64,000 nt of DNA from Methylophilus medardicus (GTDB taxonomy: Bacteria > Pseudomonadota > Gammaproteobacteria > Burkholderiales > Methylophilaceae): the NCBI RefSeq assembly GCF_006363955.1, contig NZ_CP040948.1:1054001-1118000 (forward strand), written 5' to 3'. Position numbers and translations under genes: made by a program. The notes beneath the pieces were generated by a model. That model ran no database searches. It was not told the DNA's origin and was given only the letters and a program-made list of their open reading frames with translations. This document shows, piece by piece, positions 43,691 to 48,797 of this stretch. The first letter of the stretch is position 1. Every line of letters starts with the position of its first letter.

Positions 43691-43750
43691 TTTTGCATCA
43701 TAGGGTTAGAGTGGTAAAATCGCGCTTTTGAAATTTAACCTGTTTTGACA

Positions 43751-44668
43751 ATGAGCCAATACCTAACCGCTGCCCTCTATAAATTTGTCCCCTTGCATGA
43801 CTATCAAGCACTGCAACAACCGATTTTGCAGGCATGCCAGCAACACCAAATCAAAGGCACCCTGCTGCTGGCAAAAGAGGGCATCAACGGGACAATTGCC
43901 GGGGCGCCAGATGCAATTCGGGCAGTATTAGCCTATTTGCGATCTGATCCACGTCTGGTCGACCTCGAACACAAAGAGTCCTGGGCAGATAGCCACCCGT
44001 TTTACCGCATGAAGGTCAAACTGAAAAAAGAAATCGTCACCATGGGCGTGCCTGAGGTAGACCCTAATTTAGTGGTGGGGACCTACGTCAAGCCTGAAGA
44101 TTGGAATGCCATTATTTCTGACCCAGAAGTGATTGTGCTCGATACGCGTAATGACTACGAAGTGCATATTGGGACGTTTAAAGGTGCATTAGATCCTAAA
44201 ACCACGACCTTCCGAGAGTTTCCGCAATACGTGGCTGAAAACCTCGATAAAACCAAGCACAAAAAAGTCGCCATGTTCTGTACGGGGGGTATCCGCTGTG
44301 AAAAAGCGTCCTCCTACATGAAGCAACAAGGGTTTGAAGAGGTCTACCACCTGCAGGGCGGCATTCTAAAATATCTCGAAACGGTGCCTAAAGAACAAAG
44401 CCTGTGGCAAGGCGAGTGTTTTGTGTTTGACCAGCGCGTTGCAGTCAAACACGGCCTCGAAGTAGGCGACCATGATCAATGCTACGCCTGCCGCATGCCA
44501 CTTACCCCCGAAGAAATGCAGAGTGAACAGTATGAAGCGGGCATTTCTTGCCCTTATTGCTATGACAAATTATCTGCCGAGAAAAAAGAGTCGTTGCGTG
44601 AGCGGCAAAAACAGGTGAAGTTAGCCAGAATGCGCGGGCAACAACACATTGGTGAACAGAATCAGTAA
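43751..44668 (+). CDS. trhO: tRNA uridine(34) hydroxylase TrhO (rhodanese-like, UPF0176)
   Basis: A 305-residue protein with an N-terminal acylphosphatase-like domain ([17 protein letters not shown]) and a central rhodanese domain whose active-site loop is [14 protein letters not shown]-terminal Cys-rich part has CYACRMPL and CPYCYDKL, a likely zinc site. TrhO hydroxylates U34 of some tRNAs (ho5U formation). ATG 43751 is preferred over an upstream TTG at 43745. Confidence 0.94.
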
Positions 44669-44716
44669 GTGCGAAATTCACTGATCATAAAACGCCATCA
44701 AAAGATTATTTGCACC

Positions 44717-45700
44717 TTAAATGACATCTAAAGGGCTGGCCACGCCTCGGCCGCCCGTCATCACCACCTTGGTATACAGTAGCGTGGTGCTTTCATCAGC
44801 ATGCCCCATCAGTTGTTGCACCGTCTTGAGCGCTTGCCCACCTTGCAATAAGTGTGCTGCAAAGCTGTGACGCAGCACATTTGGCGACACCTGTTTGTGG
44901 ATGCGCGCGTGTTCCGCCGCTTTTTTAATTGCCCGTTGCAGCGGTTTTTCATCGGCATGGTGGCGATAAACCGCGCCGGATGTCTGCACCACCGATAGCC
45001 TGCTCGCTGGGAACACATACTGCCAAGCCCAATCCTTGCCAGACGTGGCTTGTTTTTTGACCAAAGCTGGAGGCATCCATACCTCCCCCAAGCCTTTGGA
45101 TAAGTCATCTCGAAATAAGGCCTCTACTGCTTGCAGATGCAACTGCAAGGGGTTGACCAAGCTCGAAGCCAGCAGGGTGATTCGATTTTTATAACCCTGT
45201 TCGTCGCGGACCAAAATCTCCAATCGTGAGAAATCAATATCCGCAACCCGCAAACGCAAGCATTCCATCACTTTTAAGCCGCTCCCGTAAAGCAAACTGG
45301 CCATCAGCCATCGCGCGCCATCCAGCCCTGAGAGAATGGCTTGCACTTCTTGTGGACTCAAGACCACCGGCAAACGCTTCTGTGCCTTGACTTTTGACAT
45401 ATTCTCGAGCGCCGGCAATCGCTGCCCAAGCACTTCATCATATAAAAAATGCAGGGCGCTCTTCGCTTGATTTTGTGTGCTAGCGGCCACGGTTTTTTCG
45501 ATGGCTAAATGCGTTAAAAAATCCTCCACCTCAGCCACCCCCATCTCACGCGGGTGCCGCTTGCCATGATGCAGAATGTATCGTTTAATCCACTGAATGT
45601 AGGCTTCTTCAGTGCGCTGGCTGTAATTCAGCGTACGCAAGCGGTCAACAATCAAGGGAAACAACTTAATAGGCTGTTTCACTTCAGGTGTGTATGCCAT
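44717..45700 (-). CDS. Integron-type tyrosine recombinase (IntI lineage), catalytically degenerate
   Basis: A 327-residue tyrosine recombinase. The IntI-specific insertion is present (RDDLSKGLGEVWMPPALVKK, then WAWQYVFPASRLS, then YRHHADEKPLQRA), and so is the IntI C-terminus GGRGVASPLDVI. Of six catalytic positions, three differ from functional IntI proteins. The first Arg is Lys143 (GSGLKVMECLRLR), the beta-hairpin Lys is Gln168 (DEQGYKNR for GKGxKxR), and the HxxR His is Asn274 (SPNVLRHSF). Arg277, His300 (GHADESTT) and Tyr309 remain. It is full length with no frameshift, so it is expressed or recently inactivated by substitution. No LexA box was seen upstream and no convincing attC array. 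Flanking genes to the right are small and cassette-sized. Confidence 0.88.
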   Translation of the reverse strand: MAYTPEVKQPIKLFPLIVDRLRTLNYSQRTEEAYIQWIKRYILHHGKRHPREMGVAEVEDFLTHLAIEKTVAASTQNQAKSALHFLYDEVLGQRLPALENMSKVKAQKRLPVVLSPQEVQAILSGLDGARWLMASLLYGSGLKVMECLRLRVADIDFSRLEILVRDEQGYKNRITLLASSLVNPLQLHLQAVEALFRDDLSKGLGEVWMPPALVKKQATSGKDWAWQYVFPASRLSVVQTSGAVYRHHADEKPLQRAIKKAAEHARIHKQVSPNVLRHSFAAHLLQGGQALKTVQQLMGHADESTTLLYTKVVMTGGRGVASPLDVI

Positions 45701-45889
45701 AGAAAAAGCCTTTTATTGAGGTGTAATATAAAATGACTAACCATTGATTTTATTATCATAAATCATTTTTATAAGTTTATAGCGCATAGCCTAAATAAAT
45801 TTTATGATCGTTTTTTGTTTCATCAGCGATCCCTAGAGCGAGTGGCATAACCGCCAACTTTCATTCAATCTAACCGAGTCAAACCCACC

Positions 45890-46534
45890 ATGTATGTACC
45901 CACCCATTTTGCAGAGTCAAACATCGATGTGCTACATCAGTTAATGCGGGCACATCCTTTTGCGACCTTGATTACGATGTCTTCTGCAGGGATTAACGCC
46001 AATCATGTTCCCTTGCACTTGATCCCAGAGGCAGGGCAGTACGGGGCATTGCAGGGGCATGTCGCGCGCGCAAACCCTGTGTGGAGCGATCTCGTCCACG
46101 AGGTGGAGGCGTTGGTGATTTTTCAAGGCCCAGATGCCTATATCAGCCCATCCTGGTATCCAACAAAACAAATAGACGGCAAAGTGGTCCCCACGTGGAA
46201 TTACATCACCGTGCATGCTTACGGCACATTGCGGGTGATTGATGATCCAGCATGGGTAAAAAATCAACTCGAGTCACTGACTACGCAACTGGAGGCATCG
46301 TTTGAAAAGCCTTGGGCCATTGCTGATGCGCCGATGGCGTTCACCGACAACATGATCAACGCGATTGTGGGCGTTGAAATATTGATTACAAAACTTGTCG
46401 GCAAATGGAAGCTGAGCCAGAACCAACCTGCATTGAATCAAGCGGGGGTGGTGCAAGGCTTACAGTCGCTCAAGCAGTCAGAGGCCACTGAACTGGCAAG
46501 CGCGGTTGAAAAAGCACATAAAAAGGCCCGCTAA
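45890..46534 (+). CDS. FMN-binding negative transcriptional regulator (PaiB family)
   Basis: A 214-residue split-barrel flavin-binding protein. MYVPTHFAESNIDVLHQLM at the N-terminus, then FQGPDAYISPSWYP and VPTWNYITVHAYG, are standard for the PaiB family. B. subtilis PaiB affects sporulation genes; elsewhere members are general FMN-binding stress proteins. It lies across an AT-rich gap from the integrase and is monocistronic. The direct target is unknown. Confidence 0.92.
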   Translation: MYVPTHFAESNIDVLHQLMRAHPFATLITMSSAGINANHVPLHLIPEAGQYGALQGHVARANPVWSDLVHEVEALVIFQGPDAYISPSWYPTKQIDGKVVPTWNYITVHAYGTLRVIDDPAWVKNQLESLTTQLEASFEKPWAIADAPMAFTDNMINAIVGVEILITKLVGKWKLSQNQPALNQAGVVQGLQSLKQSEATELASAVEKAHKKAR

Positions 46535-46733
46535 CATCGTATTTAAGTCTGTTTAGCTAGATTGCATTTGCTTGACTAGATTTGCGCGACCAAATGACGC
46601 TCGTTTTGCCAAGGATTAACATTCAAACGCCATCGGGCATGGCGCGTTGATCGTGGCAGGATTGCTAGACGCCCGAAACATTAGGCTTTACCATGGGCCA
46701 CTATCTTTTGATGCCCAATAAGAAAGGTCTTGT

Positions 46734-47066
46734 GTGGCTATTCAGTTTTTACCTATTCTTAAGGCGGTGGCACCTTACATCGCCCAAGTCGCCACTGCGG
46801 CGATCCCCGCTTTTACTTCAAAACCCGAGGCTGCCAAAGTGGATCCCTTGCTAACGCGGCAGATTGAGGAGTTGCAGGCAGCAACCATTCAAAATGCAGA
46901 GTCTATTCATCTATTAGCAGAAAAAATGCAGTTGGCGATTCAGGCCTTAGAGCAAGCGGGCGGGGAGGCGAAGCGGCAAGTCGCCACGTATAAAACCATG
47001 CTTTTTTTTGCGCTCGGTTTGGCCATGCTCACCGCAATGGCCTGCGTTTATTTATTGATGCGATAG
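46734..47066 (+). CDS. Small protein with coiled coil and C-terminal membrane helix
   Basis: A 110-residue protein starting at GTG 46734 after AAAGG. A hydrophobic N-terminus (FLPILKAVAPYIAQVATAAIPAF) is followed by a heptad-like helix (LLTRQIEELQAATIQNAESIHLLAEKM in part) and a C-terminal helix (MLFFALGLAMLTAMACVYLL). I recognise no family. The layout resembles small holin-like or membrane-fusion proteins, but nothing supports a specific role. Confidence 0.65.
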   Translation: MAIQFLPILKAVAPYIAQVATAAIPAFTSKPEAAKVDPLLTRQIEELQAATIQNAESIHLLAEKMQLAIQALEQAGGEAKRQVATYKTMLFFALGLAMLTAMACVYLLMR

Positions 47067-47094
47067 TGAAGGGTGTTCAGGGAGCGTTGCAAGT

Positions 47095-47463
47095 ATGTCA
47101 AATTTAAGTGTCACGGAAATTAAGGCATTTGTTCCAGCAAAACAGTTTGCGTTATCCAGGCAGTTTTATCTCGATCTTGGCTTTAGTCTGGCGTCAGAAG
47201 GCGGCGGTGTTGCTTACTTTCATATTGGGGATGCTAGCTTTTTATTACAGGATTTTTGTGCGGATAACCTTGCCGAAAATTTTATGATGCATTTGCTGGT
47301 GCAAGATGTGGATGCCTGGTGGCAGCAGATAACGCAAAGCGGCATTGTTGAAAAATACGGCGTCAAACTGTCGCCGATCCAGCTGCAGCCGTGGGGGATG
47401 CGCGATTTTTGTATCGCCGATCCGTCAGGGGTGTTGTGGCGCATTGGTCAAAATGTCGATTAA
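47095..47463 (+). CDS. VOC-family (glyoxalase/bleomycin resistance-like) protein
   Basis: A 122-residue single vicinal-oxygen-chelate protein. Two beta-alpha-beta-beta-beta units are visible (IKAFVPAKQFALSRQFYLDLGFSL in part, and LLVQDVDAWWQQI). The closing strand GMRDFCIADPSGVLWRIGQ carries the usual DPDG-like turn (DPSG). It could be a drug-binding or metalloenzyme VOC protein; substrate unknown. It follows the coiled-coil gene by 28 bases. Single VOC genes are common integron-cassette cargo. Confidence 0.88.
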   Translation: MSNLSVTEIKAFVPAKQFALSRQFYLDLGFSLASEGGGVAYFHIGDASFLLQDFCADNLAENFMMHLLVQDVDAWWQQITQSGIVEKYGVKLSPIQLQPWGMRDFCIADPSGVLWRIGQNVD

Positions 47464-47529
47464 CCTGCCGTTGTATGTGCTGTTTTTGTCGTGCTGACAT
47501 GATCGATTGGGCGAGCGAGGATGCGTGAG

Positions 47530-47958
47530 ATGGCGAGTTATTGGTTATGGTGGGCACTCCTGTCTGCCAGTTTTGCTGCATTGACAGCGATTTTGGCCAA
47601 AGTGGGGATGCAAGGGCTGGATACCGATTTTGCCACGCTGATCCGAACCTTATGCATTACGCTGGTGTTAGTGCCGTTTGTTTGGCTGACCGGCAAATGG
47701 CGTAATCCATTCACTTTGCCGCCACGTGCATTGCTATTTCTGGGTTTGTCTGCCTTGGCGACTGGGGCTTCTTGACTGTGTTATTTTCGCGCCTTACAAC
47801 TGGGTGATGCTTCTAAAGTGGCGCCGGTCGATAAACTCAGTCTGGTGCTGGTCGCAGTGTTTGCAGGCCTGTTTTTGGGTGAACGCTTAAACAGTCGTGA
47901 ATGGTTAGCCCTCGCCTTGGTGGTCATCGGGGTGGTTTTAGTAGCGATAAAACGTTAA
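47530..47958 (+). pseudogene. EamA/DMT-family transporter interrupted by an in-frame TGA
   Basis: The coding frame gives a four-helix half-size EamA protein of 142 codons: SYWLWWALLSASFAALTAIL, then DFATLIRTLCITLVLVPF, then RALLFLGLSALATGAS, and after the break LCYFRALQLGDASKVAPVDK and LALALVVIGVVLVAI. The break is a single TGA at 47773-47775, exactly where relatives have Trp in GASWLCYFRALQLG. A TGG to TGA change explains it; the rest of the frame is intact to the TAA at 47958. So it is either a recent nonsense pseudogene, a readthrough case or a sequence error. An ATG at 47521 adds three codons. Confidence 0.85.
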
Positions 47959-48040
47959 TTGCGCCTGAGTCCGATAGCTCAATGTGGCTATTGCAACGCG
48001 AACAAATTCGGTTATAAATGAGGTTGACCTAGTCCACGCG

Positions 48041-48059
48041 GCCCTTCAGGGGCTTTTTT
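48041..48059 (+). terminator. Terminator after the broken EamA gene
   Basis: GCCC/GGGC stem with a TTCAG loop (48041-48053), followed by six T residues. Confidence 0.7.
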
Positions 48060-48158
48060 ATTCAGCGCGGGTGGTTGGCAACACCAATGCCATGGTCATG
48101 AAATGACACTTGTTTCAATGCATAGCCTGTTTTTATGCGCAAGGATGGTAAACCGAAG

Positions 48159-48797
48159 ATGTTAGACCGAAGCCTGTTCAATCGTTATGTTTTGCTCGCC
48201 GGCCTGATCGCATGCCTAGTGGGCTGTTGCGGCACCGTGCCCAGCACGATCACGCAGCCCCCGGCTGTGAAATCAAAATCAGCATCCAATGCGGCTTTGC
48301 ATGTGATTGGTGTGCATCAAGGCCCACGCGGCCGCAGTATGGATCAGCGCGTAAATTTGGCGCAGTGCCAGGCTTTGCGCAATCAAGCGAAGCAGGCGCA
48401 ATTGTTATCTCCTGACGCTTGTTTGGCGGATGTGCATCAAGCATACGATGCACGCACCATTACTGTGAATATCACGGACGATTCACAGCCGATTATTTTA
48501 GGTTTAATGGCCTATGAGGCCGTTAACTGGCAGATCTCTACCACACCGGGCGTGGTGATTGAGAGGGTGATTGTGGCCGGATATCATCAACCGCAGGTGC
48601 AGGGGGTCGGCGATGTGCAGGTTGACGTGTATAGTTATGACAACAGCCCGTGTCCGCGTTGTGTCCAAAAAGGGCGCTTTTTTTATGCTTATGAGCGGGT
48701 ACCGCTTGAAATGGAACTGGCGGCGGGTGTTAGGGCGAGTTCATTTCAAGGGAATTACACCGGTGGTAGCTATCAAATATTTAAAGGCATGCAATAA
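48159..48797 (+). CDS. Putative lipoprotein of unknown function
   Basis: A 212-residue protein with a lipobox LVGCC at about residues 20-24 after a basic start and a hydrophobic stretch (YVLLAGLIACLVGC). An in-frame ATG at 48135 would add eight residues but lacks a ribosome site. The mature part has Pro/Ser-rich sequence, then beta-rich blocks (RTITVNITDDSQPIILGLM, then WQISTTPGVVIERVIVAGYH). A CPRC pair (SPCPRCVQKG) could bind metal or form a disulfide. I do not recognise the family. It stands among small accessory genes. Confidence 0.7.
   Translation: MLDRSLFNRYVLLAGLIACLVGCCGTVPSTITQPPAVKSKSASNAALHVIGVHQGPRGRSMDQRVNLAQCQALRNQAKQAQLLSPDACLADVHQAYDARTITVNITDDSQPIILGLMAYEAVNWQISTTPGVVIERVIVAGYHQPQVQGVGDVQVDVYSYDNSPCPRCVQKGRFFYAYERVPLEMELAAGVRASSFQGNYTGGSYQIFKGMQ

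Follow-up and report, generated by a model that had tools for sequence, protein, structure and literature searches.

The window analysed here is a stretch of 64,000 nucleotides from the chromosome of Methylophilus medardicus. It carries an integron-type integrase gene next to trhO, together with the following features:

43745..44668, plus strand: trhO, the conserved neighbour fixing the shared locus
44717..45700, minus strand: intI, integron-type tyrosine recombinase of 327 aa, catalytically altered allele class (TIGR02249, alignment with 2a3v, AlphaFold2 model)
44774..44776, minus strand: codon 309, nucleophile Tyr kept (alignments)
44801..44803, minus strand: codon 300, catalytic His kept (alignments)
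44870..44872, minus strand: codon 277, catalytic Arg kept (alignments)
44879..44881, minus strand: codon 274, Asn for the His of HxxR (H267 of V. cholerae IntI4); Asn in 7/7 clade members, Gln in G075 (alignments)
45197..45199, minus strand: codon 168, Gln for the Lys of the beta-hairpin (K160), a position with Q, N, E or H in relatives (alignments)
45272..45274, minus strand: codon 143, Lys for the catalytic Arg (R135); this Lys is private to the window among the 8 deficient proteins (alignments)
45701..45812, minus strand: non-coding stretch upstream of intI that is conserved; promoter side, may include an IntI-binding region; approximate limits (alignment)
45745..45765, no strand assigned: candidate operator, 21-bp imperfect inverted repeat TGATTTT-N7-TAAATCA (motif from relatives)
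45816..45889, no strand assigned: approximate place of the attI crossover in relatives, core absent in the window (alignment)
45890..46534, plus strand: PaiB-like FMN-binding gene at the position where the cassette array starts in intact relatives, no attC adjoining (Pfam FMN_bind_2)

The frame of intI comprises 327 codons without stop on the minus strand; the plus strand is full of stops at the same coordinates. The protein matched the integron integrase model TIGR02249 at full length (residues 17-326) with 382.9 bits at a cut-off of 265, and it is the only protein above this cut-off in the one-contig genome of 2.60 Mb. Its best solved relative is IntI4 of V. cholerae (PDB 2a3v, alignment 3e-73). 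In this alignment K143, Q168, N274, R277, H300 and Y309 correspond to R135, K160, H267, R270, H293 and Y302. The Lys and the His at these positions are catalytic in tyrosine recombinases. Instead of the catalytic set R, K, H, R, H, Y the residues K, Q, N, R, H, Y were found. An earlier note on this DNA had described a full-length IntI whose catalytic Arg, Lys and His are replaced by Lys143, Gln168 and Asn274, with R277, H300 and Y309 retained and the frame open over 327 codons. TIGR02249 and the alignment with 2a3v confirmed this description. In the latter, Arg, Lys and His do not occur at alternative equivalent positions, and misaligned catalytic residues were thereby ruled out.

The additional domain specific for IntI is present with its WAWQYVFP and RHH segments. 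Two positions contacting attC are altered (Y210 to Gln and P211 to Ala), both outside the range given as allowed in the accessible part of the residue list of PMC3108266. An AlphaFold2 model of the protein reached a mean pLDDT of 84.1, with residues 1-9 and 310-318 below 50, and had 2a3v as its top PDB match. Model, structural match and residues together indicate a recombinase fold with catalytic residues lost.

Matches to IntI at E <= 1e-30 were detected in 71 of the 187 genomes of the family and in 20 of the 22 genomes of the genus. Fragments of G057, G129, G047, G178, G033 and G127, a second match of G186 and a fragment of 135 residues of G060 were not taken from this search. Eight proteins, termed deficient here, were found to lack catalytic residues: those of the window, G073, G062 (M. 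methylotrophus), G060, G061, G074, G068 and G075. In the first seven the hairpin Lys is replaced by Q, N or E and the His of HxxR by N; G075 has H and Q at these two positions. The first catalytic Arg (Arg-I) is lost in the window alone and kept in the other seven. Tyr, Arg-II and His-III are kept in all eight. An oddity confined to the window was thus rejected, since the replacements of Lys and His are common to seven Methylophilus genomes. Outside the deficient set, R, K and H were retained at the three positions in 69 of 69 aligned IntI rows, mostly from the family. In a class-wide sample 88 of 89 IntI retained all six catalytic residues and the remaining one had Gln for His, but this sample was ranked, among the matches listed, by likeness to intact Methylophilus IntI and may favour intact ones. 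Among the matches listed from the plasmid collection (8 rows), class 3 integrases were nearest at 48% identity.

The changes extend beyond the catalytic residues. Of 78 positions that are near-universal in IntI, 21 were altered in one or more of the eight deficient proteins. The same count gave 2/59 and 0/57 for two intact clades of eight rows, 5/61 for a divergent intact clade of six rows and 13/70 for a far one of five rows; the truncated row L042, the duplicate L045 and the fragment L089.1 were left out. The altered positions concentrate around HxxR and the nucleophile, at residues 272-315 (12/25 vs 9/53, p = 0.006; counted by hand, in a region picked after looking). Hence, more of the active site is changed than three residues, and the active-site region is remodelled as a whole. 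The set of substitutions, which the earlier note had called clean and unusual, is indeed unusual in view of the other 69 rows; with 21 altered positions, Y210Q and P211A, the word clean is too strong. The retention of R277, H300 and Y309 in all eight proteins says little, because 57 of the 78 near-universal positions are kept as well.

Alignment with IntI proteins from Methylophilaceae and a phylogeny had been suggested as a check. In a gene tree of 28 rows, with the trait columns removed, the seven deficient IntI sharing the Lys and His replacements formed one clade (100/100), within which R143K is private to the window. These seven also share R234 and Q239 besides N274, in comparison with eight intact rows of the genus. 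G075 may or may not belong with them (p-AU 0.35 for holding together) and was no longer counted as a sure member of the clade.

At one and the same chromosomal locus, adjoining trhO, intI occurs in the seven, in G075 and in six intact sisters. The hosts of the seven do not form a clade. In a host tree from rpoB and gyrB with 21 genomes (G072, G069, G071 and G075 by gyrB alone, G077 omitted) a topology uniting the seven hosts is worse by 909 log units (p-AU 8e-48, about 1e-47), and at least six changes of allele state are required. A single vertical loss in one host clade was rejected by this tree. Deficient and intact hosts are likewise mixed by the genes that flank intI. Close hosts can carry unlike alleles, as with G062 and G067, where fourfold identity is 0.67 in the flanks and 0.41 in intI. 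Intact alleles were exchanged too: the intI genes of G064 and G065 are more alike than their flanks. As the deficient alleles are one gene clade while their hosts are not, the allele class either moved between species by exchange at the locus, or is very old and outlived species splits.

attC sites were sought with a model based on 35 sites from loci of the family that have active-type IntI; the pairs in it show compensatory changes. In the window no match was obtained at E <= 1; the best one had E 2.1 with filters off over 44600-48200. Four attC-like sites exist in the genome; none lies in the window, and intI is separated from the nearest by more than 500 kb. Arrays of attC adjoin intI at one of eight deficient and ten of twelve intact loci (Fisher p = 0.005, with rows that are not independent). 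The twelve include L108, whose contig ends at intI with the array side unseen; L099 was counted as arrayless with one weak attC of 26.7 bits. The attI core was searched in the window with up to 3 mismatches and in the alignment, both without a match. Among the deficient loci, the core known from intact ones was lost by the window, G074, G068 and G075 and is mutated in G062; G060 and G061 have it almost complete.

The sole deficient locus with an adjacent array is that of G073. Its attI and the first ~250 bp of its intI are 85-97% identical, in windows of 100 bp, to intact G065/G064/G072, followed by 49-76%. The attI, the intI start and the cassette array (L092 9292-15676) look imported by homologous recombination, and the array was therefore rejected as a proof of activity. 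Single cassettes of G073 have 94-95% identity to counterparts in G079 and G065; G057, a genome of another genus, matches at 89%.

The PaiB-like gene of the window has relatives with 48-54% identity at other positions in 13 of the 21 other genomes of the genus. It may be a former cassette or an insertion. An EamA-like frame at 47521-47960 of the window ends after 84 codons, and the DNA downstream still looks transporter-like by eye; the frame is possibly interrupted. No Rfam match at gathering scores was obtained over 30000-64000, and a promoter and terminator scan of 44600-46000 gave 1 and 3 sites at shuffle means of 1.5 and 1.8.

Selection was investigated with a branch codon model on codons 96-327 (catalytic domain) of 12 sequences, with saturated deep branches. 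Omega was 0.116 in the deficient clade, 0.098 on the intact branches (difference p = 0.24) and 0.096 on the terminal branch of the window. A value of 1 was rejected for the window branch (2dlnL 85, p = 2.7e-20) and for the clade (2dlnL 615). No nonsense change was seen on the window branch, where some 46-54 are expected under neutrality. The fourfold sites of the window are near random (0.29-0.49, 15 comparisons), yet protein identity is still 59-77% and no stop interrupts the frame. Because of the saturation of deep branches, the recent and unsaturated pair G060-G061 was also used. It differs by 21 silent and 6 replacement codons (dS 0.11, omega 0.085). The pair G073-G074 gave 0.142, four intact pairs 0.028-0.063. 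By these less saturated pairs, selection is strong and perhaps slightly relaxed in the deficient class. On the stem branch omega went to the upper bound of 20, with saturated sites; setting the stem to 1 was worse by 1.5 log units, setting it to the intact value by 25. The high value may reflect a burst of change, but it is given no weight here because of this saturation.

A determination of dN/dS in close relatives had been proposed earlier, and purifying selection was the outcome. Decay at the active site only, which the earlier note had offered as one of two explanations, is contradicted when read as neutral decay: omega tests and absent stops reject it. An ordinary pseudogene in early decay would agree with the loss of catalytic residues, attI and array. 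Furthermore, such losses are frequent according to the available parts of two surveys, one predicting 43% of 1,135 intI homologues as inactive (PMC3108266) and one counting nearly a third of intI genes as pseudogenes (PMC2426708). Nevertheless, omega near 1, stops and frameshifts were not found for the window's IntI, omega is far from neutral in the clade too, and the loss is old, as it is common to seven species. We consider early decay very improbable.

The low omega values could also be borrowed, if the locus was repeatedly patched by homologous recombination with functional alleles and the protein was useless to its hosts. The clear mosaic of G073, the strong conflict between host and gene trees and the exchange of intact alleles between G064 and G065 are in line with this idea. 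However, the gene of the window contains no recent segment of high identity (all windows of 100 bp at most 86% to 15 loci). Intact donors would restore Lys168 and His274, which are absent in all seven, and purifying selection has acted recently between G060 and G061. Thus, borrowed constraint appears improbable, though less so than early decay.

Cassettes were found to have moved in relatives with deficient IntI. Over 381 bp, a cassette of G061 (L125 3578-3958) and one of G068 (L128 6511-6891) agree at 99.5%. The identity runs from AC-GTT to GTTAGG, i.e. between the cassette borders at core sites, and the hosts are distant Methylophilus. In both genomes the deficient IntI is the only one above the TIGR02249 cut-off. 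Other cassettes of G061 are 91-95% identical to G072, G067 and the second array of G060, and one cassette of G062 is 92-94% identical to G067 and G065. The genomes G060 and G061 are 99.2% identical at rpoB and gyrB, and have different cassettes between flanks of 96-97% identity at the first site. At a second locus (L124 5385-9979 vs L136), with flanks likewise 96-97% identical, G061 has 12 attC sites and G060 has 2, with no cassette in common. At both loci the breaks between the two genomes lie at cassette ends. In G060 a second, different IntI (L091) with active-type residues and a broken N-terminal part lies beside attC sites at a contig end. None of the seven clade genomes is without an attC-like site. 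This turnover of cassettes can have three sources: the deficient enzymes still work, an integrase now lost has acted, or arrays were swapped by homologous recombination.

The first source implies that the deficient IntI still recombines by a non-canonical active site (R/K-Q/N/E-N-R-H-Y), more slowly or at certain sites only, and acts in trans on attC and attI-like sites elsewhere in the chromosome. Tyr, Arg-II and His-III in 8/8 and Arg-I in 7/8 proteins are compatible with activity, as are the cassette common to G061 and G068 with its ends at core GTT sites, and the whole-cassette turnover between G060 and G061. No other IntI above the cut-off is present in G061 and G068, that of G060 is broken N-terminally, and attC-like sites occur throughout the clade. 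Against it, the accessible part of PMC3108266 places the replaced Lys and His among the residues of IntI that cannot be mutated. The attI core is lost or mutated at five and the adjacent array absent at seven of the eight loci. The broken second IntI of G060 reveals a further integrase in the past of this lineage. Arrays could also be swapped by homologous exchange among strains of one species; a gene beside one array is only 91% identical between G060 and G061. For the window itself Arg-I is lost too, two attC-contact residues are changed, and there are four attC-like sites only, all of them far off. In regard to the absence of recombination, residues and sites thus argue for it and cassette mobility in relatives argues against it. 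Owing to the moved cassettes in relatives, an active recombinase is retained as the main alternative, although a rather unlikely one.

The DNA upstream of intI is conserved. A block of about 110 bp is 75-76% identical to intact G067, G059 and G079 over 108 columns, whereas the fourfold sites of the gene reach 31-37% in those pairs. In comparison with all 15 loci the values range from 43 to 76%; the block is weak in the clade members G074 (55%) and G068 (43%, the lowest). The candidate operator within it agrees at 13 of 14 letters with a motif read off the relatives, a score reached by 1 of 2000 shuffles, with the motif chosen after the alignment had been seen. In 13 of 16 loci the spacing between the inverted repeat and the intI start is constant, and in a fourteenth it differs by 2 bp, with 11-14 of the 14 motif letters present; the repeat is absent in G074 and G068.

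Our preferred interpretation, which we hold with about even confidence, is a chromosomal integron integrase of a long-lived class with a remodelled active site, kept for a role other than normal cassette capture, with DNA binding as the likeliest one. The IntI of the window would no longer perform normal attI x attC recombination of cassettes in its host. Its retention would be due to preserved folding, assembly and DNA binding, the simplest target being its own upstream region. The protein may thus act as a repressor-like former recombinase in autorepression or control of the locus, binding upstream as a dimer or higher form and controlling its own or neighbouring transcription. Alternatively it might occupy sites that an active integrase would use. 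The allele class would have spread among species through homologous exchange at this locus, or would have outlived them.

For a role in DNA binding speaks purifying selection at nearly intact level, and so do the remodelling of the entire active-site region, the lost attI core and the absence of arrays beside most deficient loci. The conserved upstream DNA with an inverted repeat at a fixed place would be a plausible target, and MrpR offers a possible precedent as a repressor with recombinase fold. Opposed to it are the recently moved cassettes in genomes with deficient IntI only, and the upstream block, which as a putative target is weak in G074 and G068. The somewhat higher omega of the deficient pairs (0.085 and 0.142 vs 0.028-0.063) suggests relaxation, and the far intact IntI clade also differs at 13/70 near-universal positions. 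Retention for DNA binding without recombination, the second explanation of the earlier note, is still the best fit, and the protein is probably kept for binding. Its other part, the loss of recombination, we infer from residues, lost attI core and missing arrays, and it is called into question by relatives with the same substitutions and recently moved cassettes.

In comparison with known systems, the protein resembles the IntI of chromosomal integrons (TIGR02249; IntI4, 2a3v) in full length, WQYVFP and RHH segments, fold of 2a3v and a locus which in sister species has active-type IntI with attI and attC arrays. It differs by replacement of three of six catalytic residues, by the absence of attI core and attC beside the gene and, as a class, by the 21 of 78 changed positions. 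MrpR, the master repressor of the Bacillus prophage SPbeta (PDB 8A0A), also combines a tyrosine-recombinase fold with lost catalytic residues, Asn at the His of HxxR and a kept Tyr (PMC10516654). This repressor is without recombinase activity, and 3 of its 7 catalytic residues are present (PMC10516654). In contrast to the IntI of the window, MrpR keeps the Lys and has lost crucial Arg residues, with V137/S138 at the first position and, in the accessible part of the table, V257 at the entry after His (PMC10516654). It is a prophage protein with below 25% identity to recombinases, and its repression was determined experimentally (PMC10516654), whereas the window's IntI would be a putative repressor.

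Inactive intI genes of chromosomal and mobile integrons are likewise predicted to have lost function (PMC2426708, PMC3108266, PMC12444791). The available text of PMC3108266 counts missense changes at these residues and would already flag IntI with such substitutions as inactive; it and PMC10516654 describe the Lys and the His there as catalytic. The inactive genes in the accessible parts of PMC2426708 and PMC12444791 have stops, frameshifts, deletions or truncations, whereas the deficient Methylophilus frames are full length, in seven species, under purifying selection. In Xanthomonas, species with mostly inactive integrases have fewer attC sites (PMC12444791). Active integrases are costly (PMC3510236), which is a reason to lose activity, not to keep the protein. 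Integrons of the family are known (PMC11089894; Methylobacillus in PMC2426708). A paper on Methylophilus integrons was not found in the open-access PMC full texts. The accessible parts of this literature likewise contained no description of an IntI class that looks inactive and yet is under purifying selection.

Integron integrases without activity are commonly regarded as wreckage, or as an escape from the cost of an active integrase. We are somewhat more confident than for the specific role in the broader statement that Methylophilus species share an old, selectively maintained IntI allele class with rebuilt active site, which is exchanged between species at a single locus, where it substitutes for the active allele. 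This class would represent a domesticated DNA-binding regulator, a natural anti-integrase, or a recombinase without hairpin Lys and HxxR His. If this is true, a selected, old and species-swapped class of inactive appearance would mean a second useful role of IntI, or looser catalytic rules. This would bear on other full-length IntI now called inactive by residue rules.

A sequence of 143 bp in G061 (L125 3442-3584), ending at an attI-like GTTAG, recurs in G067, G060 and G062 with 84-88% identity and lies near attC-like sites in G060 and G062. It is possibly a dispersed attI-like site without intI.
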